From contig MWCQ01000021.1 of the NCBI GenBank assembly GCA_002070105.1, positions 1 to 40,316 of the forward strand: 40,316 nucleotides of DNA. The letters run 5' to 3'. Shown here piece after piece: positions 11,939 to 31,783 of the stretch. The stretch is from Firmicutes bacterium ADurb.Bin193. GTDB lineage: Bacteria; Bacillota; Clostridia; Monoglobales; Firm-18. The notes beneath the pieces are model-generated. The model did not search any database. It saw nothing but the letters and a program-made list of their open reading frames with translations, and was not told the DNA's origin. The position numbers and the translations under genes were made by a program. The stretch's first letter is position 1; the number at the start of each line of letters is the position of its first letter.

Positions 11939-13816
11939 TTAGACGCACAAACAGTGCAGGGGCAGGGGCGTGGCGCTGGCCGGCGTGATATCAACTGCAG
12001 GCAATTGCGGCGAAATGAGGCAATTTGGGGGTTGACAAAAATAGCGTCTTGTGTTACACTGACCCTTGCCGGAAATCAGAAGGTGGGTTTTTGGGAACAA
12101 AATAACGCTACGGAGAGATGGCTGAGCTGGTCTAAGGCGCACGATTGGAAATCGTGTGTGGGCTAATACCCCACCGAGGGTTCGAATCCCTCTCTCTCCG
12201 CCACTTTTGTCCTCGATACTTTGATGTATCGAGGACTTTTCATTTCTGGCGATTTCAATCTGTTCTTTTATCGGCAGGCGTCTTAGTGGGTTGTCGGGCG
12301 GCGTTTGCCGTTCTCTCGCGAATTTGAATTTTATTGTGATGGAATCATCATAGACCGTTACCCTGTCTATAAAGGTTTCTATCAGGGTTTTCAGGTTTGA
12401 GAGAACGCCGTTTCTCACAAGGGTTTTTACGCTTTGAAACGCATTTTGTATATCCTCTTCACTGACCTTCGGAATGTCTGTGTCGATTTCAAACTTCATC
12501 AGCTCCTGCATGACCTCACGTTTTTCATCCTCCAGTCTGGAAAGCCTGCCGAGCAGAGCTTCCGACTGCGCTTTGATAATCAGGTCGGTCAGTGTTTCAA
12601 TATCCCTGTCAAGGTCCTTCTGCTTCTTTTTCAGCATTTTAATGTGTTCCTGCTTATCCTTGTCATTACTGTCGCAGAACTGGTTATAGTAACCCACGAT
12701 CCGGGGTATCATGCTGTCGCAGAATATTTCTTCCGCGAGCAGCCTTATGACAAAGCTTTCTATCGCATCCCGGTCCAGCGACTTTGACTCGCATTCTTTT
12801 GAACCGTTGTGCCGCTTTCGGTAATTGCAGTCGTATTTGATATAAACCTTCCCGGTCCGCTTGTCAACCCTTCTGTCGCCCGAGTACGCGCATCCGCAGT
12901 TTCCGCAGAATATTTTGCCCGACAGCAGATAGGTTTCAATCACCTTGTGGCCCTTAAAGCTTTGCTTATTCTTTTTGCGTATTTCCTGCACCGCGTAATA
13001 ATCTTCTTTTGATATGATCGCGGGACAGCCTCCGTCAATTTTTATCCATTCGCTTTCATCCTTATAGGCGTGCCCATTTCTTTTGCCATCACAATTCTTG
13101 CTCATGGCTCGGTTGAATACGTAAACTCCGCAGTATTTCGGGTTATCAAGCATTCCTGAAATACTGTTGGAAGAAAACGACTTTCCCGTTTTACTCCGGT
13201 ATCCCATGCCATTAAGCTCACCCGCTATACTTTTATACCCCACCCCTTCAAGCACCCTTTTGAACGCAAGCCGTATGATTTCAGCCTCTTTCTCATTCAC
13301 GACAAGTTTCATGGTATCCGGGTCAACGTCAAAACCCAGGGGAGGAATCCCGCCCGTGTGCTTGCAGGCATATGCGTTCTCGTTTAACCCCTTCATAGTC
13401 TCACGTCTTAAATTGAGTGAAAAATATTCCGACATTCCTTCCAGAACACTTTCCATGATAACACTTTCGGGGCTGTTATCAAGCTTTTCCAGCACCGAAC
13501 AGACGGTGATGCCACTTCGCTTGAGCTGATGCTTGTAATACGCACTGTCATAACGGTTCCGGGCAAAACGGTCCAGCTTATGTACAATAACCAATTCAAA
13601 CTCACGCTTTTTGCTGTCTTCAATCATCTGCAAAAACTCGGGGCGGTTATCCGTCGTGGCGGTCTTGGCCCGGTCCACGTATTCATGCATGATCAGAATA
13701 CCGTTCCTTTTGGCATATTCCGCTATCGCCCTTTGCTGCGCGTCAATGCTTTCGTCACGCTGATTGTCGGATGAAAACCTGCAGTAGCTGACGCCCCGGA
13801 TCAATTCTTTTGCCAT
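11939..13816 (-). CDS. Large serine recombinase (integrase), reading through the tRNA antisense
   Basis: The frame encodes 625 residues, of which about 537 lie inside the element. The resolvase catalytic domain is at residues 8-150 with Y11-x-R13-x-S15; S15 is the nucleophile. A recombinase domain follows, then a zinc ribbon (FCGNCG near residue 310 and further Cys in YDCNYRKRHNGSKEC) and a coiled-coil segment rich in K/D/E. An AGGAG ribosome binding site precedes the ATG at 13816. The last 88 residues are translated from host DNA, antisense to tRNA-Ser (SGGERGIRTLG ...), because insertion removed the native stop. The protein should catalyse integration into and excision from the tRNA-Ser gene. 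Whether the altered tail is functional is unknown. Confidence 0.88.
   Translation of the reverse strand: MAKELIRGVSYCRFSSDNQRDESIDAQQRAIAEYAKRNGILIMHEYVDRAKTATTDNRPEFLQMIEDSKKREFELVIVHKLDRFARNRYDSAYYKHQLKRSGITVCSVLEKLDNSPESVIMESVLEGMSEYFSLNLRRETMKGLNENAYACKHTGGIPPLGFDVDPDTMKLVVNEKEAEIIRLAFKRVLEGVGYKSIAGELNGMGYRSKTGKSFSSNSISGMLDNPKYCGVYVFNRAMSKNCDGKRNGHAYKDESEWIKIDGGCPAIISKEDYYAVQEIRKKNKQSFKGHKVIETYLLSGKIFCGNCGCAYSGDRRVDKRTGKVYIKYDCNYRKRHNGSKECESKSLDRDAIESFVIRLLAEEIFCDSMIPRIVGYYNQFCDSNDKDKQEHIKMLKKKQKDLDRDIETLTDLIIKAQSEALLGRLSRLEDEKREVMQELMKFEIDTDIPKVSEEDIQNAFQSVKTLVRNGVLSNLKTLIETFIDRVTVYDDSITIKFKFARERQTPPDNPLRRLPIKEQIEIARNEKSSIHQSIEDKSGGERGIRTLGGVLAHTRFPIVRLRPAQPSLRSVILFPKTHLLISGKGQCNTRRYFCQPPNCLISPQLPAVDITPASATPLPLHCLCV
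12032..12060 (+). promoter_or_regulatory. Sigma-A promoter of tRNA-Ser
   Basis: Perfect TTGACA (12032-12037) and TACACT (12055-12060) are 17 bp apart, about 50 bp before the tRNA. Confidence 0.8.
12112..12203 (+). tRNA. tRNA-Ser (anticodon GGA)
   Basis: The gene has a long variable arm, an acceptor stem GGAGAGA/TCTCTCC, a 5-bp anticodon stem around loop TTGGAAA and an encoded CCA. The anticodon GGA reads serine. It is the attachment site of the 18-kb element to its right; its last 14 bases are duplicated at 30421-30434. Confidence 0.95.
12190..12203. repeat. Left att site (14-bp core in tRNA-Ser 3' end)
   Basis: The last 14 bases of the tRNA, including CCA, are identical to 30421-30434. Bases outside this core differ on both sides. 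Confidence 0.8.
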
Positions 13817-14446: not shown

Positions 14447-15556
14447 TTACACACCTCCCATCTTCATACCCATTGCCTCTTTCTTCTCCATAATTTTCTG
14501 CCATTCCTTTTTATCAATGTGACGTCCCTTTTCCATTGCGATCTCCTGCTCACAATCCCTATGAAGTATTTTAAATATCTTCAAAACCAAATCCACGAAA
14601 GCGTTTTGTACTAAACTTTTATTTTCAATATTATCCAGCCTGTCCGCTTTATCAATGATGATATTCCTAACCTTATGAAACACTTCGTTTTCCCATAACG
14701 GCGGAAACTCCACCTCGCCATCCTGATAATAACCCATAATTCTTGCCTGAATAGAACACCATTCGTCATAGATATCCGCAATACTTTTGTCCTGCGCCAG
14801 CTCCTGAAACAATTTGTTGATAACCTGCTTCTGTTCCTTTTTTAAGTAACCATAATTCTTTTTGCCTGTGGTATGTTTTAGGGATACAGACAGCTCCCCG
14901 AATAATTTTTGAAATTCATTGCTCACAGAAATATTTTTGCCTATACGCTTTGCTGTTTCAGATATTTTCTCCTTAGATTTTTCCGTAAGCTTTTCACGGG
15001 TTTGTGTTTTATAATCATATAAATGATATAATTCATCTTTAAAAATCGTTCTCGTAAGTTCCGACCGCATTACCCTGATGCCTTCCTTGGAAAGATAACC
15101 GCCACCCGATTTTGAATAGACAAGCATGTGGATATGGGGATGATCATCCTTGTCATGGAACGCCGCATACCATTGCAAGTCCTTCAGAGGAATTTTAAAA
15201 TTCTTTGCAATATCAGCCTGCTTTGATTTTAAAAGCGTCTGCCATGTTTTTGCATTGTTATACCCAAGCCGGTCAGCGTCTTCTCTTCTCAGAGATATAA
15301 TCGGCATCCAGACATTGCCCTTGTATTCCTCCAGTCCCTTCATCACAGCCGTTAAACTAACGTTATCCTGACTTGAAAACAATCCATGTGTCCCGAGCTT
15401 TTCTACCTTGGGACGGGTTGCGATATATCTTGCGTTTATACATATCCTGTTGTTAATTGATTTATCGACGCCCGGCCTTGTAGCAATATACTTTGCATTG
15501 CCGCTTGTTGCGCTGCCCTTTGCATATGGGGCCTTCATAATGACCGCCGCACTCAT
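14447..15556 (-). CDS. MOB-P family relaxase (MobP3-like)
   Basis: The product has 369 residues, typical of the MobP3 group. The N-terminus has the YIATRP motif, which here occurs twice (residues 23-28 and 44-49) and should contain the nicking tyrosine. The metal-binding His cluster HDKDDHPHIHM gives H134, H139, H141 and H143. The C-terminal half is helical and charged. The enzyme should nick oriT and stay covalently bound to the 5' end of the transferred strand. AGGAGGT lies 6 nt upstream of the ATG. The intergenic region upstream carries repeats and a strong hairpin suited to an oriT. Confidence 0.88.
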   Translation of the reverse strand: MSAAVIMKAPYAKGSATSGNAKYIATRPGVDKSINNRICINARYIATRPKVEKLGTHGLFSSQDNVSLTAVMKGLEEYKGNVWMPIISLRREDADRLGYNNAKTWQTLLKSKQADIAKNFKIPLKDLQWYAAFHDKDDHPHIHMLVYSKSGGGYLSKEGIRVMRSELTRTIFKDELYHLYDYKTQTREKLTEKSKEKISETAKRIGKNISVSNEFQKLFGELSVSLKHTTGKKNYGYLKKEQKQVINKLFQELAQDKSIADIYDEWCSIQARIMGYYQDGEVEFPPLWENEVFHKVRNIIIDKADRLDNIENKSLVQNAFVDLVLKIFKILHRDCEQEIAMEKGRHIDKKEWQKIMEKKEAMGMKMGGV

Positions 15557-18533: not shown

Positions 18534-18800
18534 AGCGACAGTTGATGTTTTTCAACTGTCACTAATCAATGCACACATATAAACAGTCTGATTTAAGGGT
18601 GTCTTTTGCTTTGCATAACACTTTGAAAATGGATGCAACCATATTTTCAAACAACAGTGTTTAAATCAGCGGTCTTTTATGTTCAGATTAAGCGTAAAAT
18701 AACGCTTAATGCCCAGTCCCATCCTATATCATAGTTTAAATCAGACTTTATTATAAACCACTATTCATTATTGAGAGGCTCAGATTGACATCAATCTGAG
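18534..18800. other. Hairpin-rich convergent spacer
   Basis: Nested inverted repeats fill this region. They include 18535-18560 (11-bp stem, one mismatch), a 12-bp perfect pair 18585-18596 with 18736-18747, an inner stem near 18688-18709, and a 10-bp stem over the stop codon of the nuclease gene (18779-18800). It separates converging genes and probably terminates both transcripts. A structured RNA is possible. Confidence 0.45.
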
Positions 18801-19757
18801 TTCACCATTAGCCATAGTCTGATATCTTAATAATTTGATAACTTTGTTTTCATATTGCTTACGCTTTTGAATATAATCAATAACATCGGCATCAAACCTA
18901 TTGGCTATAGCAGTTGTCCTAACCATATTCAAATCACCTTGAACCTTCTTTTGAATGAACCAAGATTCATATCCAATTAATTGACGTAGTGCTTTTCCAT
19001 CAAACCGATCCAACTTTACTTCGATTACGTCGTATGACATAGTCTGTAATAGATTTTGTGGGTTTCCAAACATTAATAGAATATCCATTTCGGTACCAAG
19101 ATTTGTCGGAATATAACTTAGATAATCCGTATAATTTCCAAATATGTCCTGATGCCTTTTTTTTACAAAATCATGCAATAAAAGCGCCATAAGAGTAGCT
19201 TCATAACAGGGCTTTCCCTCATTTGTTCTATGTATTTTATTCCAGAGGTTTGCTGGCTTAACGGGGTAAGGCTCCATAATAATGTTTTTTCTGATTGTAA
19301 ACGGGTTGATTTTTAAGTACTCCTGCATTAGAATTTGAAACTCGCCATCCGATATAGAGAACATAGCATTGGTTCCGCTGGCACGATTGAGTGCAAACGT
19401 CCAAATCTTTCCGGTATTTTGTAAATCATATATGTCATGTAACCGTAACGGCTTTTCAAAACTATATTCCGTACTATTCAGCCGGAAACGGAAAGGGTAT
19501 ATTTTATCTTCCCACACAATGGTTTCATCATAAAAAGCTTCACCTTCTGCTCTCCAAATTCCTCGCAGTTCTTTTAAACCAGTTATGTAAAACAAGACAT
19601 AGTCTCCATCTTTCATAATGGCAATTCTTGAAAGTAAAGCATCACTAACTGATTTCTGATTCCTTGAATCAGTCTTGGCCTCAGGCAGACCAACCAACCC
19701 TTTTTTAATGCAAGTATTATAGTTAATATCATCCAGTACAAAAATATGAGCAGGCAT
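18780..19757 (-). CDS. PUA/EVE-like modified-base reader fused to a PD-(D/E)XK nuclease
   Basis: The product has 325 residues. Residues 1-150 resemble the EVE/YTH branch of the PUA-like fold: an N-terminal IFVLDDINYNTC strand, then GDYVLFYITGLKELRGIWRA, FYD..IVW and YPFRFRL. Residues 180-320 look like a PD-(D/E)XK nuclease: E186, E223-x-D225, the core E246-V-K248 (YDVIEVKLDRF) and Q259 in LRQLIGYE, similar to NucS/DUF91-type enzymes. An AGAGGG ribosome binding site precedes the ATG. It is the last gene of the defence operon, 45 bp after the helicase. A modification-dependent (type IV-like) endonuclease is inferred; the modified base is unknown. Confidence 0.7.
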   Translation of the reverse strand: MPAHIFVLDDINYNTCIKKGLVGLPEAKTDSRNQKSVSDALLSRIAIMKDGDYVLFYITGLKELRGIWRAEGEAFYDETIVWEDKIYPFRFRLNSTEYSFEKPLRLHDIYDLQNTGKIWTFALNRASGTNAMFSISDGEFQILMQEYLKINPFTIRKNIIMEPYPVKPANLWNKIHRTNEGKPCYEATLMALLLHDFVKKRHQDIFGNYTDYLSYIPTNLGTEMDILLMFGNPQNLLQTMSYDVIEVKLDRFDGKALRQLIGYESWFIQKKVQGDLNMVRTTAIANRFDADVIDYIQKRKQYENKVIKLLRYQTMANGELRLMSI

Positions 19758-19802
19758 TTTTTATCCCTCTTTAAATATGATTTGTCCATTTATCAATAAT
19801 CT

Positions 19803-21530
19803 CTAAATTATTGTCGTTTTAGGAAAATAGTTATCTTCACCAAATAGCAGTTTAAGATTTTTTTGTGCGGTTTCACTTAATGTAGATAAATATACAAGAG
19901 CCAAATTATACTTAGCCCTAGAACAAATTACATACAACATATTCTTTGTTTTTTCAAATCTAGGTGTTCCCGCATCGGTTTCATCAAAATAATTACTAAA
20001 ATTGTAGCTTGTCTTCCAGTCGCTATCATCAACAAAACAAATAACATTATCAAATTCGGCACCTTTTGTACCGTGATCAGTAGAGAATGGTGATGTCTTC
20101 TTTACGGTATAATATAAGTTTTGAAATTGTATGTATTCTATTTTCATCAAGGTGTAAAAAAAATCATCATGCAGTTCTTGATTCTCGTAAATATGCTTGA
20201 TTTTACTCGGCTGTTTCAATAAATTATTACTCCAAACAAAATCAAAAATCTCTTGTATGTTGCTTTTACTTGTCGATTCGATTAGTCTCTGCATCAAGTC
20301 ATTTAATTTTGTTTTATCTTCCATGCAAAAAAGCTCATACGATGTTTTGGCTAATAATTTCTGTATCTTGTTGTTCTGATACAATTCAATCATTTCTTCT
20401 ATTTCGAATAGAAAATTTGCGAATGGGCAATCTCTATTATCTTTATTTTTGAGCAATTCATCTTTATTTTTAGATCTACGATTAGTTACATTCTTGTTTT
20501 CTTCATCATATAAATCATGTAATCCGAGGTACCCATTTCTTTTAGCAATAGATTTAGTTACCAAATAAAGTCGTTTAACTTCCATATCTTCTGTTATATT
20601 TAAATCATGATATATTTTACTTGATATAAACTCTTCTGTATCTAATTCAGTGTTATTAATATAATAGCAAACGCACCTTCCATGTTTTTCCTCACCTGAT
20701 TGTCGTTGCTCTATATCACTTCGTAATTTATTCAATAGGTTGATTACTTCCAATGAGCATCTATAATTTTCATCTTTGGGAATCTTTTTTAAGTTGAATT
20801 TCGAATCATCCACTTTTCCAATCGTTTGTCCATAGATCTGCTGATTATAGTCGCCGAATAGCCCGAACAAAATTGAAGAATTGTTTTTAACTTTATTTAA
20901 TAATGCATCGGCTATTTCTTGATTGGTATCTTGATATTCATCAATGAAAATTATAGGGTATGTATCCTGAATTATTTTATAAATATTATTATACTTTCCT
21001 ATCATTGCAGTTGCCAATTTAAGAATATCGTCATGGGAGACAATACCTTTTTTACGATCATAGTAAGCTTTGTATTCAATTCTTCCTTTGAATTTATCTA
21101 ATTCATCTAATGTTAGCTTGTATTTATCGGCCTTTTCTTTAGCATCAGCATACTTTTTTGTTGTTGCTTTTGTTGTCAGCAAAATATCTGTGTTTTTAGT
21201 ATATTGTGTTTTAACAATTTCAAGTAGTTCAAGCTTTAGTTCCCTTTGAAAAGGCTTTATTATATCCCACAAGAAATCATGAATAGTCTTAACATCTATC
21301 AACTGATTTGCCTGAATTCTATCAATAATTTCTTCTTTAGCAACATTCGTATATGTAATACATGCTACTTTTCTGTTTGCTACTTTTAATTGATTTCCTT
21401 TAACTTGTAGAATATAAAACAAGGATTGCACCAAACTCCAAGTCTTGCCGCTTCCGGCTCCAGCTTCAACAATGAAGCTTTCATTATTGTCAACGCATTT
21501 CATAATAAGATGTTCTACTTTGCTAGCCAT
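19803..21530 (-). CDS. UvrD/Rep-like SF1 helicase (GajB-like)
   Basis: The product has 575 residues with all major SF1A motifs: Walker A AGAGSGKT (23-30), motif Ia ITYTNVAKEEI (58-68), Walker B IIFIDEYQDTN (193-203), motif III LFGDYNQQIYG (224-234), NYRCS (255-259), motif V STDHGTKGAEFDNVI and motif VI YVICSRAK near the C-terminus. Its ATG lies inside the end of the OLD gene (16-bp overlap) and uses GGAGGG encoded by the last OLD codons, so the two are translationally coupled. OLD-TOPRIM plus UvrD-like helicase is the composition of the Gabija phage-defence system. It is somewhat longer than typical GajB (about 500 aa). Confidence 0.82.
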   Translation of the reverse strand: MASKVEHLIMKCVDNNESFIVEAGAGSGKTWSLVQSLFYILQVKGNQLKVANRKVACITYTNVAKEEIIDRIQANQLIDVKTIHDFLWDIIKPFQRELKLELLEIVKTQYTKNTDILLTTKATTKKYADAKEKADKYKLTLDELDKFKGRIEYKAYYDRKKGIVSHDDILKLATAMIGKYNNIYKIIQDTYPIIFIDEYQDTNQEIADALLNKVKNNSSILFGLFGDYNQQIYGQTIGKVDDSKFNLKKIPKDENYRCSLEVINLLNKLRSDIEQRQSGEEKHGRCVCYYINNTELDTEEFISSKIYHDLNITEDMEVKRLYLVTKSIAKRNGYLGLHDLYDEENKNVTNRRSKNKDELLKNKDNRDCPFANFLFEIEEMIELYQNNKIQKLLAKTSYELFCMEDKTKLNDLMQRLIESTSKSNIQEIFDFVWSNNLLKQPSKIKHIYENQELHDDFFYTLMKIEYIQFQNLYYTVKKTSPFSTDHGTKGAEFDNVICFVDDSDWKTSYNFSNYFDETDAGTPRFEKTKNMLYVICSRAKYNLALVYLSTLSETAQKNLKLLFGEDNYFPKTTII

Positions 21531-23635
21531 ATTAATCCCTCCTCAATATAAGTCGGAACAGACCAGCTTGTTGATGATATATACATTAAATCAAAGGCAA
21601 AATCAGATTTTTTATTATTTGTATCAATATATTCATAAATATTATAAGAATTATTTAAAATATCGTCCGCACTTTTATAATCACTAATATTACTTTTAAT
21701 ACTTTCTAATTGATCTTTCATGTTAAACATATATCGTGCATTATCTATAATAAATGCTTCTTCAAATGTGCGGCCACATTTGATATTAGTTTTTGTATTA
21801 TATGTATTTCTTTGAAACGAAACATTAACCAACTGTTTGCTGGTCTGATTAAACTTACTGAAAATTAATTCTTTAATCATTTTCTTTCCAGGCAACCATT
21901 TTATTAAAGTCTGATTTGAGGTTACCAATTGTAATATATAATCTGATGTGATTTCTTTCTTTCTATAACGAGTCATTTTAGGAGTTTTTCCATCCTTCAA
22001 AAAAACAAGATTACCATCCTTGTCCTTCTCTTGCTCAGATAGACAACTATCCACATCTGTTATAATAAGAGTTTTTATCCCCAAAAATTCAAGGAACTCT
22101 TTAAACTTAAACATGTAAGCTCCGCCAATTTCTATTATTGCAATATATTGCTCAGACAGTACACGCAGTTTCTGGTACTCAGGCCGTGACTTTATTAGAG
22201 TATCTATTTTCATAAGAAACAATGGCATTAAAAGACGTTCACATAAACCTTCGACTAAAATGATTTTATCTGCGAAAAACATATCACATTTTACAAGTGT
22301 AATATATTGCTTTAGAAACTCAATTGTGCCTTCATCAAAAGGTTCATCATGAATTTCTTTCTTTTTAGCATCGATTTCAAATTCTAGTAAATCCTTTACA
22401 GTTACAGAATACTCATTTCTATTAAAATACCTAATGTTTTCAAATTTTGCATTTGAAACTATATGAGGAGAATGTGTGGATATTATAACCTGAGCATTAA
22501 TACCATTTTGTTTCATAAACTCACTTAACTTTGTAATAAAGGTATTCTGTAGCTGTGGGTGCATATGAGCTTCAGGTTCTTCTATAAATATTAGATTTAA
22601 ATCAGAATTAAGTTCTTTAATTTGCGACCGGAAGCAAAGTATTTCAGATATGATATAGATTAAATTGCTATATCCTAATCCATTATATCTTTCTGGAAGT
22701 AAATGCTCCTGATCTTTGTAAAATAATTGTATGCCACTAAATAAATTCGTTAGAGTTACATTTGATTTTAATATAAGATCTGAACCTTCCATATTGGGAT
22801 ACCCAAAAGTAGAAAATGAAGCTGTAAAATCCCTAAAGAATGAAGCTAATTTTGTATCTATATCACCGTTTGCTTTGTCCATAGTATCAAGCAATTTTTC
22901 TAATTCAGGTAATGTCTTGTTTTCTTTTGTTTTCTCACAGTTTTTATATTCACGCTGAAAAACTGGTGCCAATTTAGAATTTGTTTTTGAATTACTATCT
23001 TCAACTTGCCTTTGTGCTGCTATAAAGTAACTACTTATAATTTTTTGAATGTCTGCATACTTCACTTCATCTGTATATATATCTTGGTAAATTGGTTTTA
23101 TAACACAACCATAAAAATCATTAATCACTTTTGATATTTCGCCCAAAATACATTGTTTATTATTTTGTTTTTTAGTAGATAACTTTGAAATGGTATTAGT
23201 CAATGAGTCAAAGAATTTTTTTGGCTCTTTAATTTTAAATGCAAACAGAATATGTAAGATATTATTATTATCTAATGTAGTTAAAAGTGGTCTAATGTTG
23301 CTCCAATTATCGTCTTTTCCATATTCAATATCTAACTCCAATTCAATTGCAGGCAGCTTGTTATCAATATTAGAAAAATAATCTTCCAGTAAGTCTTCTT
23401 TATCCTTTACAGCCAAATATTCATTATATACACTTATAAATTTTTGATGACAAGCAATCGAAAAATCATCAAATGTAAACTCTTTGGTATTCTTTAGGAA
23501 AGTTTCGAAAAGATAAGAAAATGATGTTTTACCGGAATTGTTTTTTCCCACTAAAATCGTAGTTTTCTGATCAATCCGAATAGTACAATTTTCCAATAGT
23601 CGATAGTTACGTATTCTCGCATTAGTTAATTTCAT
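21515..23635 (-). CDS. OLD-family ATPase with TOPRIM nuclease domain (GajA-like)
   Basis: The product has 706 residues from the ATG at 23635, preceded by AGGGGGAA; an upstream in-frame codon at 23656 overlaps that site. The ABC-type ATPase has Walker A GKNNSGKT (30-37), a signature-like stretch YNGLGYSNLIY (317-327), Walker B IEEPEAH (351-357) and H-loop STHSPH (386-391). The TOPRIM nuclease follows, with E462 (LVEG) and D527-x-D529 (TDVDS). In Gabija, GajA is a nucleotide-regulated DNA-nicking endonuclease. This one is longer than the roughly 580-residue GajA prototype, so it may be another class 2 OLD. It begins 50 bp after the methyltransferase stop. Confidence 0.82.
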   Translation of the reverse strand: MKLTNARIRNYRLLENCTIRIDQKTTILVGKNNSGKTSFSYLFETFLKNTKEFTFDDFSIACHQKFISVYNEYLAVKDKEDLLEDYFSNIDNKLPAIELELDIEYGKDDNWSNIRPLLTTLDNNNILHILFAFKIKEPKKFFDSLTNTISKLSTKKQNNKQCILGEISKVINDFYGCVIKPIYQDIYTDEVKYADIQKIISSYFIAAQRQVEDSNSKTNSKLAPVFQREYKNCEKTKENKTLPELEKLLDTMDKANGDIDTKLASFFRDFTASFSTFGYPNMEGSDLILKSNVTLTNLFSGIQLFYKDQEHLLPERYNGLGYSNLIYIISEILCFRSQIKELNSDLNLIFIEEPEAHMHPQLQNTFITKLSEFMKQNGINAQVIISTHSPHIVSNAKFENIRYFNRNEYSVTVKDLLEFEIDAKKKEIHDEPFDEGTIEFLKQYITLVKCDMFFADKIILVEGLCERLLMPLFLMKIDTLIKSRPEYQKLRVLSEQYIAIIEIGGAYMFKFKEFLEFLGIKTLIITDVDSCLSEQEKDKDGNLVFLKDGKTPKMTRYRKKEITSDYILQLVTSNQTLIKWLPGKKMIKELIFSKFNQTSKQLVNVSFQRNTYNTKTNIKCGRTFEEAFIIDNARYMFNMKDQLESIKSNISDYKSADDILNNSYNIYEYIDTNNKKSDFAFDLMYISSTSWSVPTYIEEGLIWLAK

Positions 23636-23685
23636 ATCTTTTCCCCCTGATTCCAATCAAAATAAACTTAAGACTGTATAACCGC

Positions 23686-25314
23686 CTATCCTCTTCCTAA
23701 TCTTCGCTTTTGGAGTTTTTTCCATATTGCTCTAAATTGCTTGCAAACTTTTGGATCAATGCCTAAAAGGCCAATCAATACTTCCTCATCAACAACATTT
23801 AGCGCTCCCTCAATGTCATCATTGTTTCGTACAATATTATCAATTTTATGTAGTAAACCCTTTTTTAGCTGCGCATCAATGCCATTAATTTTAGGTAGTA
23901 TAATATTCCCCATTTCTCCAGGCAATATTTCAAGCACACCACCACCATAGCTTCTTCCGCATATCTCTGTAAATGCAAAAGAAATACTGTTATAATATGA
24001 AAGTAAAATCGTTTCATGATCTATGTCATCATTGAATTTTATTCTGTGCATAGTATCTGTGGAAACTGCCTCACAATTATTTAATACAAATTTAGGATAT
24101 AAGTTATTTCTTCTTAGGAAGAATGCATCTGGTACCCATATAGCAGGGACAATATACCACCTATCTCTGATAGAACATTTATAACCTTTATTTTGTCCTT
24201 CCCTTTCACCCTTTTCAATATATTCTTTATGTTTGATAGGGTAATTTTCATATGAAACATCTGGGAATTTAATAAGTTGTGCTCTTTTTCCATTGTTTAC
24301 ATTTTTCAACCAGTCTTCTTTTGTAAAATATATCCCATGAGCATGAGAACTACGCCCTATTAGCGGAATCAAAACTTGAGATAAGTCATATTTCTTTGCT
24401 GTTTCATTATCAATAGAAAAATAATCATTATTTCCGGTAGTAATACCAATATTAATGATTCCACAGTCCGAAAACTTCTGAAATCGGTTATCTCTTTTTA
24501 TTTTCTGTATAAGCTTTGTTTCTTCGCTAGAGGTAAAATATTTAGTCCATTTTTCCTTAACGTGCTGCATTTCTCTATACCCATTAGCCTCAAGATTTAT
24601 TGAACTAAAATTATCTAAATCGCTCATTTCAAATATACGAATACCTTTTTCTTCATGTCCCTTCTCACCAATAAAAACTAGTACTTCTTGCTCAATATCA
24701 GGGAAAACAAGTTTTTCAAAAGTAATCAATGTTATTTTTGAAAAATGGTTAGATAAATAGAGTCTTAAATCTTCCGCATAAGCAACTTGCAAAATTTCTG
24801 CCGGAATTACAAAGGCTATTTTCCCATTCTCATTTAACATCTGTACGCATGCAACTAAAAAGCCAACCCAAGCATTAATTAACTTATTAGATTTCATGCC
24901 GTGGGAAATCAATATTTTGGATTGAATTTCTCTTTGCGTCTCAGTCAAATATTGATATCTAATATAAGGAGGATTTCCTAAAATCAAATCATATTTTGTT
25001 GTTTTATATGCTTCATTATAATAATCAAAAAAATCTTTCTGCCTTACATCGATATTTTTATATTTTGCTATACGATTTTTTAATGTTTTTACCTCTCCTG
25101 CTTCAATCTCTATCGCCCTAAATAACTCTACATTATTAATTAATCCAGCTTCAATAGCAGCATCAATGAATACACCATCACCGCAGCTAGGTTCTAAAAT
25201 TGTTTTTATGGTCTTATCGGCAGCAAAAATACTCACCATTGCACTTGCAAGCTGCATTGGCGTATAATAAGCTCCTCTTAATTTTCGATCCGTACTATCT
25301 TGCTTTAGTCTCAT
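23686..25314 (-). CDS. N6-adenine DNA methyltransferase (M.Eco57I-like companion)
   Basis: The product has 542 residues from the ATG at 25314, four bases after the stop of the type IIG gene with GGTGA just upstream; a TTG at 25335 would add seven residues and overlap. Motif X-like GAYYTP (14-19), motif I EPSCGDGVF (41-49) and motif IV NPPY (114-117) define a gamma-class adenine methyltransferase. The C-terminal half should hold the target recognition domain. Size and pairing with a protein of about 1000 residues match the Eco57I arrangement, in which a second methyltransferase protects both strands of an asymmetric site. The target sequence is unknown. Confidence 0.87.
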   Translation of the reverse strand: MRLKQDSTDRKLRGAYYTPMQLASAMVSIFAADKTIKTILEPSCGDGVFIDAAIEAGLINNVELFRAIEIEAGEVKTLKNRIAKYKNIDVRQKDFFDYYNEAYKTTKYDLILGNPPYIRYQYLTETQREIQSKILISHGMKSNKLINAWVGFLVACVQMLNENGKIAFVIPAEILQVAYAEDLRLYLSNHFSKITLITFEKLVFPDIEQEVLVFIGEKGHEEKGIRIFEMSDLDNFSSINLEANGYREMQHVKEKWTKYFTSSEETKLIQKIKRDNRFQKFSDCGIINIGITTGNNDYFSIDNETAKKYDLSQVLIPLIGRSSHAHGIYFTKEDWLKNVNNGKRAQLIKFPDVSYENYPIKHKEYIEKGEREGQNKGYKCSIRDRWYIVPAIWVPDAFFLRRNNLYPKFVLNNCEAVSTDTMHRIKFNDDIDHETILLSYYNSISFAFTEICGRSYGGGVLEILPGEMGNIILPKINGIDAQLKKGLLHKIDNIVRNNDDIEGALNVVDEEVLIGLLGIDPKVCKQFRAIWKKLQKRRLGRG

Positions 25315-25318
25315 AAAT

Positions 25319-28315
25319 TCACCGTTTGAACTCAAGCCTATAGATTTGAGTTACAATGCTTTCTATTTCGTTTATTAGTTGATTTTTTTCTCTGTTCAAA
25401 ACACTAGTAGTACCTTTATCCGGGCGATTCATCAGAGCATCATTAATGGAATATATTTTGTGTGTCTTCACGACAATGTTATCGTGCAGAGTTTTTTCGT
25501 ATATACTATTCATATCAAGTTCAACAAAAGGCAGTGTTTTCAGTACAAAGGTACCCCTCGCCGTAAATCCATTTTCAAAGTCACTACCTATAATCTCAAG
25601 TAGCTTTTCTGTATAAGGATGGCTAAGCCATGCTTGTATGTACTCAAGTCCATAAGGACTGTCTTTCTTTAAACTCACTGCACAGTATCCAGCCGTCCCC
25701 CCAGAAGCAATTAGCATATCTTTATTATCAAAAGCATACATGGGATCTTTACTCAATACTCCAACAATCAGTTTCGGGGTATTAATAAATGACCTTAAAT
25801 GCTGAGTGCGCCCATATTGATACCAGGTGTCTTCTGTTGCATCCTGAACATCCCTGACTCCTTGTGAAGACACACACTTTGGTAATAAGCGATTATAATT
25901 CGACATTAAATATTCGTATGTGCCTGAATATTCAGTTTGCATGGTTTGTATATCAAATAATTTCCCATCTTCGCCGTAAGGGAATATAATCCATTTGTCG
26001 GTTATGATGGGACTATAAGAATTCAGCCCTTTTTCGCTCTTCTTCGAAGGCTTAAAATAAGGTTTTAAAATTTTCTTTTCAATGTCATAATTTTGATTAC
26101 TCCTTGAAATAGTGAAATATTTTTCTGTTTCATTTATTATCTCATCATGCCCGAACCAATATACAGGGGTAGGTCTTTCTGCACTGGTTTGTATACCATT
26201 GTAAATATCCGCATACTTAGTGATTGAAACGGAAACTGTGTCAAGTTTTTTGAGCAATTGCAGGAATTCAATGTCGGTTGACAGTCTCCAAGGCATCTCA
26301 CTTAAAGTATCATTATTAATAGTGATAGAGTTGGTTTCTGTGCCAGCCCACAATGATGCTGCAGAATTGACCTTTGTGTAAATGAATTCATTATTCTTAC
26401 GTTTACTAATGAGTAAAATAGAGCTATAAATGGTCTTATCGTCAAATAGTTGGGCATCTCCGAAATCATCTAGACTCATTAAATAACTATTTCCTGCAAG
26501 CAATTTTCGCAGATTTTTGCCTGAACCAATTTTATAGAATTTATTAGGAACAATGTAGCAGACCATGCCGTTCTCTTTGACTTTTTCGATTGCCCGCTCG
26601 ATAAATATAAAATACTTATCGAATTGCTTATATGCTGAGTCATAACTGTTTTTATATGCCAAAACTTCTACAACGGGTAACAAACCGTGCATATCCTCAG
26701 TACTAACATACGGAGGATTACCAATAATTAAATCAAATAGATTTCCTTGGTTAATATATTGCCAATCAAGCGGAACAATTTCTATCCGTGTTGAATCATC
26801 TATGTCATCAGCTTTTAAACGATAGCTATCTATTAAGGAATTACCATAAAAGATGTTTTCATCTAAATTCGGTAATATAGGAGCAGAATCAACAACGGAT
26901 GGCGCGGTTTCATCTTCAATTAGTTTCAACAATAAAGAAAACTTTGCCACTTCAACTGCATGTATATCAATATCTATCCCAAAAATGCAGGAACATAAAA
27001 GGAATTTTTTCTCTTCAAGAGGTAATTTTTTTCTTCCATTACTTAACTCAATTAAATGCTCAGGGCTATTTGCCACATACCATTCCACACAATAGTGAAC
27101 TAGATAATCATATACTTCTTCCAAAAATATACCCGACCCACATGCAATGTCAGCTATCCTTAAATTCAGTAATTGCTCTGGAGTTTTATCAAAGCAAAGG
27201 TCAGTCATTGCTTTTGAAACCATATATTTTACAATTTCTGTTGGTGTTGTAACCACTGAACGATTTACACAATCCTTTTTCTTGGCTAGAACTATTGTTT
27301 GATTATCTGAAAGAATAAGTTGTTCAGTCAGAAATGCCTCGTAAATTTTACCTAGTAAATTTGGTTCAATAATGTTAAATAAATATGGACTCTGAGGATA
27401 GTATAATCCCTCTATCATATCAAAAATAATTTGGTTATCTAGATCAAATATAATATAGTCGCCTTCAAACAAACCAGAATTATACCGTTTATCGGCAGCA
27501 TGAAATAGCTCACCAAGTTTCTTTTTCATTAAGCCTTGATCAGCTATTGTTTCTTTTAACTTGTGATAAAGCGGCAAGTTCCGATCTTCGCAAATCCTTA
27601 AGAATACAATTTGGTTTATAAATTCTTGGACGACATCGTTCAGTACAGATATAGACTTATATTTTTTATTACAATTATAAAGATAATTGCTTAAAGAAAC
27701 TCTCCAATTATTAATCTGTTTTAAGAAGTGTTCATCAACTTGTTCGGTTTGCCTATCCAAAGTAGGGAAACGCCTATTTAAATATTCGTCAAATGCTCCA
27801 CTATAAACAGCATCTCTCGAAAGCACTTGCATGATCTCGTCTAACTTTTCTACATATTCTGAATAATGATACTTACGGTAACGAGCAACAGTTGTCTTAT
27901 CAGTATCTTTAGGTATACATGTTGTATCATAAATTATTAGGTATTCGAAATTAGTAAGTACAGCTATTTTGTGCTTGGCGTTCCATCCGTATTTCTTTGT
28001 TTGATAGGCTGGCTCTATCGCTGTAGAAACATCAACCGCGGGCTTTTTTGCTTCTACAAATAATTTTGTTACACCCTTGAGGGTAAGAGAATAATCAGGT
28101 CTATCTGTTTCATTTGAATAATTCTCCGCTATAACTTCTCTGTATTGTGGTGGTAACCCCTTTTCATTAGCTACATCCCATCCTAATATCTTTAAAAGAG
28201 GATCTATGTATTCGATTCTACATGAATGTTCATTATACGAATTTGAACTGTCCTTGTAGTATTGAAGGTTTTTTCCAAATCTCTTTACTAATGATTCAAT
28301 TTTTTGAACATTCAT
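25319..28315 (-). CDS. Type IIG restriction-modification enzyme (Eco57I-like)
   Basis: The product has 998 residues combining nuclease, methyltransferase and specificity regions. The N-terminal HsdR-like nuclease has D74 (RPDYSL) and E88-A-K90 (FVEAKKP), a PD-(D/E)XK core. A helical connector leads to the methyltransferase with motif I ADIACGSGIFL (388-398) and motif IV NPPY (533-536). The remaining C-terminal part should contain the target recognition domain. The length fits the Eco57I family, which cleaves at a fixed distance from an asymmetric site. GAGGAG lies 8 nt before the ATG. It is the first large gene of the leftward operon and appears intact. Confidence 0.88.
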   Translation of the reverse strand: MNVQKIESLVKRFGKNLQYYKDSSNSYNEHSCRIEYIDPLLKILGWDVANEKGLPPQYREVIAENYSNETDRPDYSLTLKGVTKLFVEAKKPAVDVSTAIEPAYQTKKYGWNAKHKIAVLTNFEYLIIYDTTCIPKDTDKTTVARYRKYHYSEYVEKLDEIMQVLSRDAVYSGAFDEYLNRRFPTLDRQTEQVDEHFLKQINNWRVSLSNYLYNCNKKYKSISVLNDVVQEFINQIVFLRICEDRNLPLYHKLKETIADQGLMKKKLGELFHAADKRYNSGLFEGDYIIFDLDNQIIFDMIEGLYYPQSPYLFNIIEPNLLGKIYEAFLTEQLILSDNQTIVLAKKKDCVNRSVVTTPTEIVKYMVSKAMTDLCFDKTPEQLLNLRIADIACGSGIFLEEVYDYLVHYCVEWYVANSPEHLIELSNGRKKLPLEEKKFLLCSCIFGIDIDIHAVEVAKFSLLLKLIEDETAPSVVDSAPILPNLDENIFYGNSLIDSYRLKADDIDDSTRIEIVPLDWQYINQGNLFDLIIGNPPYVSTEDMHGLLPVVEVLAYKNSYDSAYKQFDKYFIFIERAIEKVKENGMVCYIVPNKFYKIGSGKNLRKLLAGNSYLMSLDDFGDAQLFDDKTIYSSILLISKRKNNEFIYTKVNSAASLWAGTETNSITINNDTLSEMPWRLSTDIEFLQLLKKLDTVSVSITKYADIYNGIQTSAERPTPVYWFGHDEIINETEKYFTISRSNQNYDIEKKILKPYFKPSKKSEKGLNSYSPIITDKWIIFPYGEDGKLFDIQTMQTEYSGTYEYLMSNYNRLLPKCVSSQGVRDVQDATEDTWYQYGRTQHLRSFINTPKLIVGVLSKDPMYAFDNKDMLIASGGTAGYCAVSLKKDSPYGLEYIQAWLSHPYTEKLLEIIGSDFENGFTARGTFVLKTLPFVELDMNSIYEKTLHDNIVVKTHKIYSINDALMNRPDKGTTSVLNREKNQLINEIESIVTQIYRLEFKR

Positions 28316-28339
28316 ATCTAGTCTCCTCTCGTTTTAATA

Positions 28340-28513
28340 TTATTTTTTATCTTTAAGTCTAGCATCTTTAGGTTTTCCTGCATCTGCTGGTATGATCCAA
28401 ACCGTCCCAACTTTCTGAACGCCATTAATTCGTCCTTGAGAGCAAAGGACTTGTATACGCCGCCTTGTTATATTCCATTTTTCTGCTGCTTCAATTACGG
28501 ACATATATTGCAC
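28340..28513 (-). CDS. Small HTH (excisionase/MerR-like) protein leading the operon
   Basis: This 57-residue ORF starts with GTG at 28513, about 10 nt after GAGGAGG. The product reads SVIEAAEKWNITRRRIQVLC ... GVQKVGTVWIIPADAGKP, the pattern of short winged-HTH domains of the excisionase/MerR type that Firmicutes often encode next to restriction-modification genes. It ends 24 bp before the type IIG gene and shares its promoter, so it is a good candidate for autoregulation of the operon, similar in role to a controller protein. ATG at codon 4 is an alternative start. Confidence 0.72.
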   Translation of the reverse strand: MQYMSVIEAAEKWNITRRRIQVLCSQGRINGVQKVGTVWIIPADAGKPKDARLKDKK

Positions 28514-28549
28514 GATGAAAAACCCTCCTCAAAGTATAAACATAAAAAT

Positions 28550-28578
28550 ATTATATACCATTTAGCGAATAATAACAA
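28550..28578 (-). promoter_or_regulatory. Sigma-A promoter of the defence operon
   Basis: On the minus strand, TTGTTA (28578-28573) and a perfect TATAAT (28555-28550) are 17 bp apart, about 37 bp before the small HTH gene. Confidence 0.82.
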
Positions 28579-28780: not shown

Positions 28781-30112
28781 TCATGTCCACCTTCCTACAT
28801 CTTTTGTTTCTTTTATCTGCCTTTCAAGCTCACCCACCGCATATAACGGCAGGTTAATTAACCCGCCATCAACCCTGAAATCCGTCATAGCGGATCTAAT
28901 CGCATATTTAGGCTGAAACATATTCCGATAGGTTTTTAAACTTTTCGCCTGCAGATTCACTTCCGCCTTTACTTCCAAAGGGACAACGCTTTCGCCGTTA
29001 TCTACCAGGAAGTCAAGTTCCGCGTTTCCCTTATCGTTTGACCAGTAGTATATGCTAAGGCTTTTCATTGTCTTTAACTGCTGCAATATATATTGCTCCG
29101 TTAACGCGCCCTTAAATTCTTCAAACAAACTGTTTCCTTCAATCAAAGTGTCCTGACGCAGCTTTGTCATGCAGGAAAGCAGGCCTATGTCAACGACAAA
29201 CAGCTTAAACGCCTTCAAATCCTCATATGCCTTTAAGGGCAAATCCGGCTTTGTTACCCTGTGCACTTTATGAACCAGACCACAATCGGTAAGCCACAGC
29301 ATTGCCAGTTCGTATTCTCTGGCGCGGGCACCTTCCTTAACCAAACCATATATAAATTTCTTATTTTCCTTAGTAAGCTGTGCCGGAATACTGTTCCATA
29401 GCATTCTGATTCTTGGAACCGTTTCATGTGGGGCGTGCTTGGAGAAATCTTGTTCGTAGGCATCCAAAATGCGCTGCTGGATTTCCCTTGCTTCATTGAA
29501 ATCCATATTTTCCGCAAAGCGGTTTACCACCTCCGGCATACCACCCACATAATAATAATATTTTAACATATCAATATATACCTGTTTAAAAGTCGCGACC
29601 ATTTGAAAATCCTGATTTTGCAGTGTCTGCACAAATTGCTCTTTTTCCATCGCCATCAGGAACTCCATAAAATTCAGCGGATATAAATCCAAAAATTCCA
29701 CCTTGCCAACGGGAAAGGAAGTTCCCTTGTGGAGCGCAACGCCGAGGAGAGAACCTGCCGCAACAATTTTGTATTGGGGCGCGTTTTCCGTAAAATATTT
29801 TAAGGAGGCCAACGCTCTCGGTACTTCCTGCACCTCATCAAAAATAATCAGTGTATTTTCGGGATTGATTTTGTGACCAGCCATCAATTCAAGCCCGGTA
29901 ATGATCCGTGCGGTATCAAGATCATAGGAAAAAAGCTCCGTCATTCTTTCGTTGTTATCAAAGTTGATATAAACAGAATTCTCAAAGCAAGTCTGCCCAA
30001 ATTCCTTCATCAGCCATGTTTTCCCGACCTGACGTGCGCCGCGAATAATAAGCGGCAGGGCGTTTTTTTTATTTTTCCACTTTTTTAACTCTTCAATTGC
30101 AAACCGATACAT
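28781..30112 (-). CDS. AAA ATPase with DUF4143 domain
   Basis: The product has 443 residues. The N-terminal ATPase has Walker A GARQVGKT (25-32) and Walker B LIIFDEVQ with D92-E93. The C-terminal DUF4143 region includes a PD-(D/E)XK-like core: ELDFLVDNG, then PLEVKAEVN. These ATPases are abundant in bacteria and archaea and often lie in mobile or defence loci, but their role is poorly defined. GAGGTGATG precedes the ATG. Its own promoter with a dyad operator is directly upstream, and the gene stops about 200 bp before the defence operon promoter. Confidence 0.85.
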   Translation of the reverse strand: MYRFAIEELKKWKNKKNALPLIIRGARQVGKTWLMKEFGQTCFENSVYINFDNNERMTELFSYDLDTARIITGLELMAGHKINPENTLIIFDEVQEVPRALASLKYFTENAPQYKIVAAGSLLGVALHKGTSFPVGKVEFLDLYPLNFMEFLMAMEKEQFVQTLQNQDFQMVATFKQVYIDMLKYYYYVGGMPEVVNRFAENMDFNEAREIQQRILDAYEQDFSKHAPHETVPRIRMLWNSIPAQLTKENKKFIYGLVKEGARAREYELAMLWLTDCGLVHKVHRVTKPDLPLKAYEDLKAFKLFVVDIGLLSCMTKLRQDTLIEGNSLFEEFKGALTEQYILQQLKTMKSLSIYYWSNDKGNAELDFLVDNGESVVPLEVKAEVNLQAKSLKTYRNMFQPKYAIRSAMTDFRVDGGLINLPLYAVGELERQIKETKDVGRWT

Positions 30113-30420: not shown

Positions 30421-30434
30421 CTCTCTCTCCGCCA
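30421..30434. repeat. Right att site (14-bp core)
   Basis: It is identical to the last 14 bases of tRNA-Ser (12190-12203). No tRNA precedes it. Confidence 0.8.
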
Positions 30435-30436
30435 TG

Positions 30437-30459
30437 TAAAACGTCAAGTTTTAGTATAA
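30437..30459. repeat. 23-bp inverted repeat, left copy
   Basis: It is an exact reverse complement of 31761-31783. It begins 3 bp after the right att core and overlaps the A-tract of the next terminator. Confidence 0.8.
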
Positions 30460-30490
30460 AAATAACTGTCCGAGTTGGACAGTTATTTTT
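30458..30490 (+). terminator. Strong terminator, probably the native one of tRNA-Ser
   Basis: A perfect 14-bp stem (30458-30471 with 30477-30490) begins with an A-run and ends with a T-run. Removing the element would place it about 24 bp behind tRNA-Ser. Confidence 0.8.
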
Positions 30491-30680
30491 GTGTCAAATC
30501 CCCATTTTACAAAGGTTTCGCAGTTTTGCTCTCAATTCCTCTTTCCGCTTTCGCCGGACAAAACGGCGGGAGTGCGGTCATATTTTTTGTTTCCTCAAAA
30601 ACTTATGCACCTACGGCTTATATAATTTAACAGCTAATCATTATCCGTTATGGACCGGAAAAGAAAACCACATGGAAAAA

Positions 30681-30728
30681 ATAAACCCTTTGCAAACACG
30701 CTGATTTGCAAAGGGATTTATTTTTTTT
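30681..30728. terminator. Terminator behind the XRE gene
   Basis: An arm beginning at 30681 pairs with 30705-30721, with the shared core CCTTTGCAAA/TTTGCAAAGG, and runs into a T-run. It can end the leftward XRE transcript through the A-tract on its left side, and also rightward transcripts. Confidence 0.7.
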
Positions 30729-30735
30729 GAAAACA

Positions 30736-30972
30736 TTACTTTGAGCGTAACTCAAACAATGTAGAGGGTGAAATGTCCAAAGCATCAGCAATATCAAAAA
30801 GCACCTCAAGTGATACATTCTTTTCCACGTTCGGAGCCTCGATATTACTTAAATGCGTTCTGCTTATATCAACAATTTCGCATAAGGCTTCTTGTGTCAG
30901 CCCTTTTAACTTTCGATAATACGCAATATTTAATCCCATTTGAGTATATTTACTGCTGTGTTTATTCGCCAT
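30736..30972 (-). CDS. XRE-family HTH regulator (78 aa)
   Basis: The product has 78 residues from the ATG at 30972, with GGGGGTGA upstream. It is a single Cro/CI-type helix-turn-helix (GLNIAYYRKLKGLTQEALCEIVDISRTHLSNIE) followed by a short dimerisation helix. It is divergent from the SLOG-like gene at 31138, with 165 bp between starts, and probably controls that promoter, where short inverted motifs occur. It lies inside the 23-bp inverted repeats. Confidence 0.82.
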   Translation of the reverse strand: MANKHSSKYTQMGLNIAYYRKLKGLTQEALCEIVDISRTHLSNIEAPNVEKNVSLEVLFDIADALDISPSTLFELRSK

Positions 30973-31064
30973 CTTATTGTCACCCCCAACTGCCATGCCA
31001 ATATTTTACCAAATGGCGGTTGAAAGTCACACAATCCACATCTTTAATTATTTCAATATATGGA

Positions 31065-31093
31065 TTGCAGCAGCAATCTAATTGTGGTATTAT
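31065..31093 (+). promoter_or_regulatory. Promoter of the SLOG-like gene
   Basis: TTGCAG (31065-31070) and TATTAT (31088-31093) are 17 bp apart. A small palindrome (ATTGC-AGCA-GCAAT) overlaps the -35 box and may be the XRE operator. Confidence 0.6.
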
Positions 31094-31137
31094 GCTTATG
31101 TCCAGATTGCAAATTTGATATTCAGAGGGGGATTACA

Positions 31138-31581
31138 ATGGAAACCATCTGCACATTTTTTGGTCATCGTGATGTGTTGAGCGATATTAAAGACAGCTTG
31201 ACAAAGGAAATTGAGCGGCACATTACCGAAAAAGGCGTAACCACCTTTTACGTTGGCGACTACGGCAATTTTGACCGCATGGCGGCGGGGATTTTGAGTG
31301 GGATGGAAAAGAATTATCCGCACATAGAGGTGCGCAAAGTGCTTGCGTATATTTCCGGCAAAAAGGCGGGATTTGCGCCGAGCCGGGAGGAAAACACGCT
31401 ATGTCCTGATGGTCTGGAATTTGCGCCGTGGAAGTTTGCTGTCACTCATAGGAACAGGTGGATGGTTGAGCAGTCGGATTATCTGATTTCTTATGTCCGC
31501 TCAAGCTACGGCGGTGCGTATGAGGCGTTGAAATACGCAAAGGGAAAGGGGAAAAACATTGTGAATTTAGCGGATGTTTAG
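31138..31581 (+). CDS. SLOG-superfamily (DUF1273/YpsA-like) protein
   Basis: The product has 147 residues from the ATG at 31138, preceded by AGAGGGG. It begins with CTFFGHRDV, has FYVGDYGNFDRMAAGIL near residue 40, and ends with a DYLISYVRSSYGGAYEALKYAKGKGKNI stretch, the layout of Rossmann-like SLOG proteins that bind nucleotides or nucleotide-derived ligands. SLOG proteins occur in nucleotide-signalling defence systems and in phage-type loci, but no effector domain is fused here. The adjacent divergent XRE gene suggests a small regulated module. Confidence 0.72.
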   Translation: METICTFFGHRDVLSDIKDSLTKEIERHITEKGVTTFYVGDYGNFDRMAAGILSGMEKNYPHIEVRKVLAYISGKKAGFAPSREENTLCPDGLEFAPWKFAVTHRNRWMVEQSDYLISYVRSSYGGAYEALKYAKGKGKNIVNLADV

Positions 31582-31683
31582 CAATCGGCACACAATAAGA
31601 AAGCCCGGCGATTGCCGCGCTTATGGGGGAGTGGTACGATATGAGGGCGTGGCAATGTTCCCGCCCTCTTTGCTTGGCGAAGT

Positions 31684-31731
31684 TGCACCTATGAAATGCA
31701 CCTGCAAAAAATATGCACCCCAAAATGCACC
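31684..31731. repeat. Four spaced TGCACC motifs
   Basis: TGCACC starts at 31684, 31697, 31714 and 31726 (spacing 13, 17 and 12). It recalls the GCACCT motifs upstream of the relaxase. No gene is visible between 31582 and 32140. Confidence 0.5.
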
Positions 31732-31760
31732 TATAAAGAGGTTTTGAGATAGCCGTTAAA

Positions 31761-31783
31761 TTATACTAAAACTTGACGTTTTA
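31761..31783. repeat. 23-bp inverted repeat, right copy
   Basis: It is an exact reverse complement of 30437-30459, closing a 1347-bp unit. Confidence 0.8.

Follow-up and report, generated by a model that had tools for sequence, protein, structure and literature searches.

A probable mobile cassette joining type IIG restriction-modification and Gabija genes, with a predicted type IV nuclease gene behind it

The operon and the element that carries it

The window, by which we mean the whole stretch of 40,316 nucleotides that was analysed, holds on its minus strand, from 28513 to 18780, six closely spaced open reading frames (ORFs), all of them intact and free of internal stops. In the direction of transcription these encode a 57-aa HTH_17 protein with a GTG start, a probable regulator (28340-28513; Pfam HTH_17, 27.2 bits); an Eco57I-type IIG restriction-modification (R-M) enzyme of 998 aa (25319-28315); a companion N6-adenine methyltransferase (MTase) of the M.Eco57I type (23686-25314, 542 aa); GajA, an OLD-family ATPase with a TOPRIM domain (21515-23635, 706 aa); GajB, a UvrD-like helicase (19803-21530, 575 aa); and a 325-aa protein with EVE and PD-(D/E)xK-like nuclease parts, predicted to be a type IV enzyme (18780-19757). 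The starts given by mechanical ORF calling were too long for two of these genes: ATG 25314, 4 bp past the stop of the IIG gene, is the likelier start of the MTase, and ATG 23635, with AGGGGG just upstream, that of GajA. With the revised starts the successive gaps are 24, 4, 50, -16 (the overlap of gajA and gajB) and 45 bp, and most of the operon's starts have a clear purine-rich ribosome binding site. The gene families and the tight packing reported in a preliminary description of this DNA are upheld by these results, the coordinates being the same or nearly so.

A sigma-70-type promoter, TTGTTA-17-TATAAT, lies ahead of the first gene on the same strand (28550-28578). The scan itself is uninformative, since it returned 58 TTGTTA-17-TATAAT-like matches in the region against 56 expected, a chance-level count; support for the promoter comes instead from a diverged copy of the locus, L202, in which both the hexamers and the spacer length are unchanged. 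The earlier proposal of a shared promoter at this site is plausible on that evidence, and the first five genes, which we refer to as the cassette, are probably co-transcribed from it.

The operon lies within a larger insertion. A tRNA-Ser(GGA) gene is found at 12112-12203, and at its 3' end stands CTCTCTCTCCGCCA (14 bases; 12190-12203, plus strand), of which the window has one other exact copy, at 30421-30434 on the plus strand (0 expected). We take these two copies as the left and right ends of the element, as joining the two flanks restores an intact tRNA-Ser 3' end. Between them lie a large serine recombinase (11939-13816, minus strand; Pfam Resolvase, Recombinase and Zn ribbon), a MobL relaxase (14447-15556, minus strand; Pfam MobL, 81 bits), small mobile-element genes, the operon and a DUF4143 ATPase. 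This is an 18.2-kb element inserted at tRNA-Ser and, judged by its gene content, a mobilizable one; the preliminary description had already called it so, and the recombinase and the relaxase bear this out.

Several further features of the element and its edge were observed. When integrated, the recombinase ORF meets no stop codon within the element: the frame passes over the 14-bp repeat at residue 538 and runs on antisense through tRNA-Ser to reach 626 codons. Circularised, it would stop after 586 residues. The AAA_14/DUF4143 ATPase gene (28781-30112), upstream of the operon on the same strand, matches the PADLOC candidate PDC-S01 with 614 bits and lies within the element and outside the conserved cassette. 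Starting 3 bp past the element's right end, a 1.3-kb stretch (30437-31783) bounded by perfect 23-bp inverted repeats contains an HTH gene as well as a weak match to YpsA/SLOG (173 aa); it is perhaps a second small insertion.

Protein families of the operon

The IIG enzyme is matched over residues 4-995 by the PADLOC profile PDLC03604 (858 bits), with Pfam HSDR_N and Eco57I domains, and contains a PD...EAK nuclease motif together with the ACGSG and NPPY motifs of a methyltransferase, so that nuclease and N6-adenine methyltransferase domains reside in a single polypeptide, as in type IIG enzymes. Adjoining it, as in Eco57I-type systems, is the separate companion MTase (PADLOC PDLC03267, 589 bits; PF22837, M_Eco57I_C), which has the expected catalytic motifs. 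This pairing is kept in relatives, the two genes forming a stable pair, amid neighbours that vary, across chromosomes, plasmids and viral contigs, and a search of plasmids with the gajB-MTase stretch as DNA returned MTase fragments only.

The OLD-TOPRIM/UvrD pair had been described as Gabija-like, and the profile searches agree. GajA combines an OLD-type ATPase with a TOPRIM domain (Pfam AAA_15 and OLD-like_TOPRIM; PADLOC PDLC00063, 596 bits), and its family profile matches the solved GajA structure 8jq9 with an E value of 2.4e-21; the adjoining UvrD-like helicase, whose gene overlaps gajA by 16 bp, matches GajB (PADLOC PDLC00135, 465 bits) and has a Walker A and a DEYQD motif. The expected catalytic motifs are present in both proteins, and gajAB is a stable two-gene pair in dozens of loci. 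The defence-system profile searches that the preliminary description had proposed as a check, made here with PADLOC, thus confirm the type IIG, MTase, GajA and GajB assignments.

For the sixth protein the matches are weaker, and both its EVE and its nuclease assignment are predictions. The EVE domain scores 22.5 bits, just below the Pfam cut-off of 23, and the same Pfam model matches all five aligned relatives (best E value 5.4e-6); a profile of the relatives gives a weak match (E value 0.0012) to a UPF0310/EVE chain of solved structure. In the nuclease part no family match rose above noise, and the conserved residues E223, D225 and E246-x-K248 follow a PD-(D/E)xK-like pattern. An AlphaFold model built from three sequences has a pLDDT of 36, too low for a usable fold.

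Genes of this kind are rare. Carriers number 6 of the 393 genomes of the class, the window's own included, with two further contigs, and searches of plasmid, phage and viral-contig sequences found none at the sensitivity used. In each of the seven further loci looked at, some of them on short contigs, the EVE-nuclease comes without GajAB or the IIG pair, and GajA matches are absent from the five other carriers within the class sample. The homology of one such locus, L001, to the window's gene is confined to the EVE ORF. In the stretch L001:5292-13760 this closest relative (84%) is followed on the same strand by a pair of large ORFs, uncharacterised and 1077 and 1324 aa long, possibly another defence locus. 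The copies in four genomes of one genus within the window's taxonomic order (L011, L012, L013 and L014) are broken, truncated or interrupted by stops, and this damage suggests that the gene decays frequently.

Conservation of the cassette and of its parts

L202, found by a wider GajA search in the phylum, is a closed genome that does not belong to the window's class. It carries the promoter followed by the HTH, IIG, MTase, GajA and GajB genes in the same order and on the same strand, with nearly the same spacing, adjoining three serine-recombinase-like ORFs, and the proteins are 88% (HTH), 82% (IIG), 85% (MTase), 92% (GajA) and 88% (GajB) identical to those of the window. This is the only other copy of the five-gene cassette that was found. 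The dN/dS ratio between the two copies is 0.07-0.11 in each of the five genes, indicating purifying selection, and dS varies from 0.34 to 1.3 across them, values at which the shared block is not a very recent copy. Identity steps from ~77% to ~94% at the MTase/gajA border, and given this step and the spread in dS, the R-M and gajAB halves may have recombined and not been inherited strictly together. The presence of the intact cassette in a distant bacterium suggests that the R-M and Gabija combination moves as a unit.

DNA homology between the window and L202 extends only from 28668 to 19817, ending 14 bp short of the stop codon of gajB, and L202 has no EVE-nuclease gene behind gajB. We therefore regard the five genes as a block and the sixth as an addition at its end. 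Loss of the EVE gene in L202, instead of gain in the window, is possible; since EVE relatives stand without the other modules, we favour addition. None of the loci compared elsewhere contains all the modules, L202 coming to five of the six genes, and the six-gene composite operon of the preliminary description is not supported: the EVE-nuclease lies outside the conserved block, and when its co-occurrence with the OLD/UvrD pair was scored in the seven other EVE-nuclease loci, as had been proposed for other genomes, no linked case was found. A six-gene unit was accordingly rejected, as was its opposite, that no two modules are ever linked, which L202 overturns. The preliminary description had also reasoned that modules occurring only independently in related genomes would speak against it; taken part by part this is mostly what we see, and the exception to it is L202, where HTH, R-M and Gabija stay joined.

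Most GajAB relatives and most IIG-MTase relatives are unlinked to each other. In a sample of 57 de-duplicated GajAB loci, 47 of which have more than 1.5 kb upstream, we looked for R-M genes upstream of gajAB, meaning within a run of no more than three same-strand genes, arranged like an operon, ahead of it. R-M or BREX genes of several types occupy this position in 9 of the 57 loci: a C5-methyltransferase motif (L040), a type II specificity subunit with a methyltransferase-like ORF (L048), a type IIG enzyme with a methyltransferase (L088), a type I methyltransferase (L114), the Eco57I type (L202), a type III methyltransferase (L206), a type II methyltransferase (L216), the BREX protein BrxL (L219) and a weak type IIG-like match (L267). 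Downstream of gajAB, among the best 25 of 86 families, at least one neighbour resembles a type II nuclease by its match. The p value of 0.007 from a Fisher test is a rough one, obtained on a non-random, GajAB-only sample with the downstream side limited to those best 25 of 86 families and with genes called by a simple ORF rule.

The first gene of the cassette has a wider distribution: of 147 genomes of the class, 76 have relatives of the HTH_17 leader. Sixteen copies stand alone and have a gene on their own strand no more than 150 bp away, and ten of these precede R-M, defence or toxin genes, the gene being that for HsdR, HsdM, a Dam-type or a C5 methyltransferase, an HKD-Snf2 helicase, one of three PADLOC candidates, Fic or DarT. 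In one locus, L228, a leader of the same kind stands directly before gajA. It is plausible that the 57-aa protein is a regulator of defence operons, in function comparable to BrxR/CapW or RptR, and it may be a portable leader of such operons. The 57-aa proteins (28340-28513 in the window; L221-L260) end in a KPxDAR tail, and some relatives are fused to longer proteins, that of L194 apparently to a Dam-like methyltransferase.

Proposed working, alternatives and related systems

We consider it likely, and hold with reasonable confidence, that the locus is a mobile five-gene cassette, probably served by one promoter, to which an EVE gene has been added behind gajB in this genome, the whole lying inside the tRNA-Ser element. 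From the sequences we infer regulation, each biochemical activity and any cooperation within the cassette as follows. The HTH protein would regulate the shared promoter, and the IIG enzyme, from what is known of its family, would cut DNA that lacks the host methylation placed by itself and its companion MTase. GajA and GajB would together make up a complete Gabija complex that works independently, a second line directed at phage DNA ends or, alternatively, at phages that defeat the R-M first line, and the EVE-nuclease would cut DNA carrying a modified base. R-M and Gabija would in this way cover different phage escape routes, and breaks made by R-M could even feed Gabija. The layered immunity proposed in the preliminary description, against unmodified DNA, modified DNA and a third signal, could reasonably be read from these families.

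The cassette might instead be pure stacked cargo, unrelated modules brought side by side in a defence hotspot, their common promoter being accidental, with L202 a transfer of the same stretch. The GajAB, IIG-MTase and EVE-nuclease relatives, nearly all unlinked to one another, are what such an origin would leave, as is the identity step at the MTase/gajA border; set against this, the five-gene block has kept its promoter and spacing at the dS observed between genomes of different classes, and R-M genes of several types recur directly upstream of gajAB. We hold this account to be quite possible, if somewhat doubtful. Far harder to sustain is a single integrated system whose R-M, Gabija and EVE-nuclease components depend on one another. 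The common strand, the short gaps and the separate ribosome binding sites would suit it, but the EVE-nuclease is missing from L202 and occurs elsewhere without the others, and GajAB and IIG-MTase are complete elsewhere as two-gene units, which leaves it very improbable.

The favoured reading, a mobile five-gene cassette with an added EVE gene, allows the possibility that R-M and Gabija have been selected together. They might be functionally coupled, Gabija keeping breaks left by R-M, or end-protected DNA, from repair or circularisation, or serving as an anti-restriction backup. Such a coupling would fit the block conserved in L202 and the R-M or BREX genes directly upstream in the sample of GajAB loci, as it would the report that linear DNA which RecBCD does not handle is the target of Gabija (preprint, PMC12407980) and the proposal that OLD-TOPRIM modules are backup effectors in BREX loci (PMC12839542); most GajAB loci, however, have no R-M neighbour, and we think it unlikely. 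The same preprint reports that phage end-binding proteins license Gabija. That there is a recurrent couple in one operon, with diverse R-M systems upstream, Gabija preventing phage DNA that is broken or end-protected from being repaired or circularised, and HTH_17 as a portable regulator, is a conjecture in which we place little trust. Were R-M and Gabija indeed to share an operon repeatedly, their joint action on DNA ends could be tested with a natural two-module cassette, and the HTH_17 leader would offer a simple mark by which to find defence operons of Clostridia. It would also be a candidate for their common regulator, a part so far ascribed to BrxR/CapW and RptR.

Those proteins are regulators of defence operons (PMC9122601, PMC12255303), and the shared feature is a small or HTH regulator encoded first in an R-M or other defence operon; the leader here differs in being a 57-aa HTH_17 (excisionase-like) protein, a putative regulator. 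Like the Eco57I-type IIG systems, the R-M pair consists of an enzyme of ~1000 aa, with an N-terminal nuclease and a methyltransferase core, followed by a methyltransferase with an M_Eco57I_C domain; unlike them, it has gajAB after it. With the Gabija system of Bacillus cereus VD045 and its relatives, the locus shares neighbouring gajA and gajB genes, encoding an OLD ATPase with TOPRIM domain and a UvrD-like helicase with intact motifs, but it represents a divergent branch, the solved GajA being reached by family profile only, and its gajAB lies behind an HTH gene and an R-M pair in a probably cotranscribed layout.

The EVE-nuclease resembles both the EVE-PD(D/E)XK proteins, predicted type IV, modification-dependent enzymes (PMC7641849), and the EVE-HNH enzyme VcaM4I, for which base flipping of 5mC/5hmC was shown (PMC7897488), in its predicted layout of an N-terminal EVE modification reader and a C-terminal nuclease. 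Its putative nuclease is PD-(D/E)xK-like and not HNH as in VcaM4I, and it is a rare protein, found in this analysis only in Clostridia-type genomes. BREX loci with OLD-TOPRIM backup modules likewise unite a modification-based first line and an OLD-TOPRIM module in one locus; here a type IIG R-M pair replaces BREX, and the Gabija pair is complete, helicase included. Clustered defence genes are a known kind, of which the R-M and Gabija cassette is a variant: the parts are known, and their union in one operon, with a predicted type IV nuclease appended, is a new arrangement.
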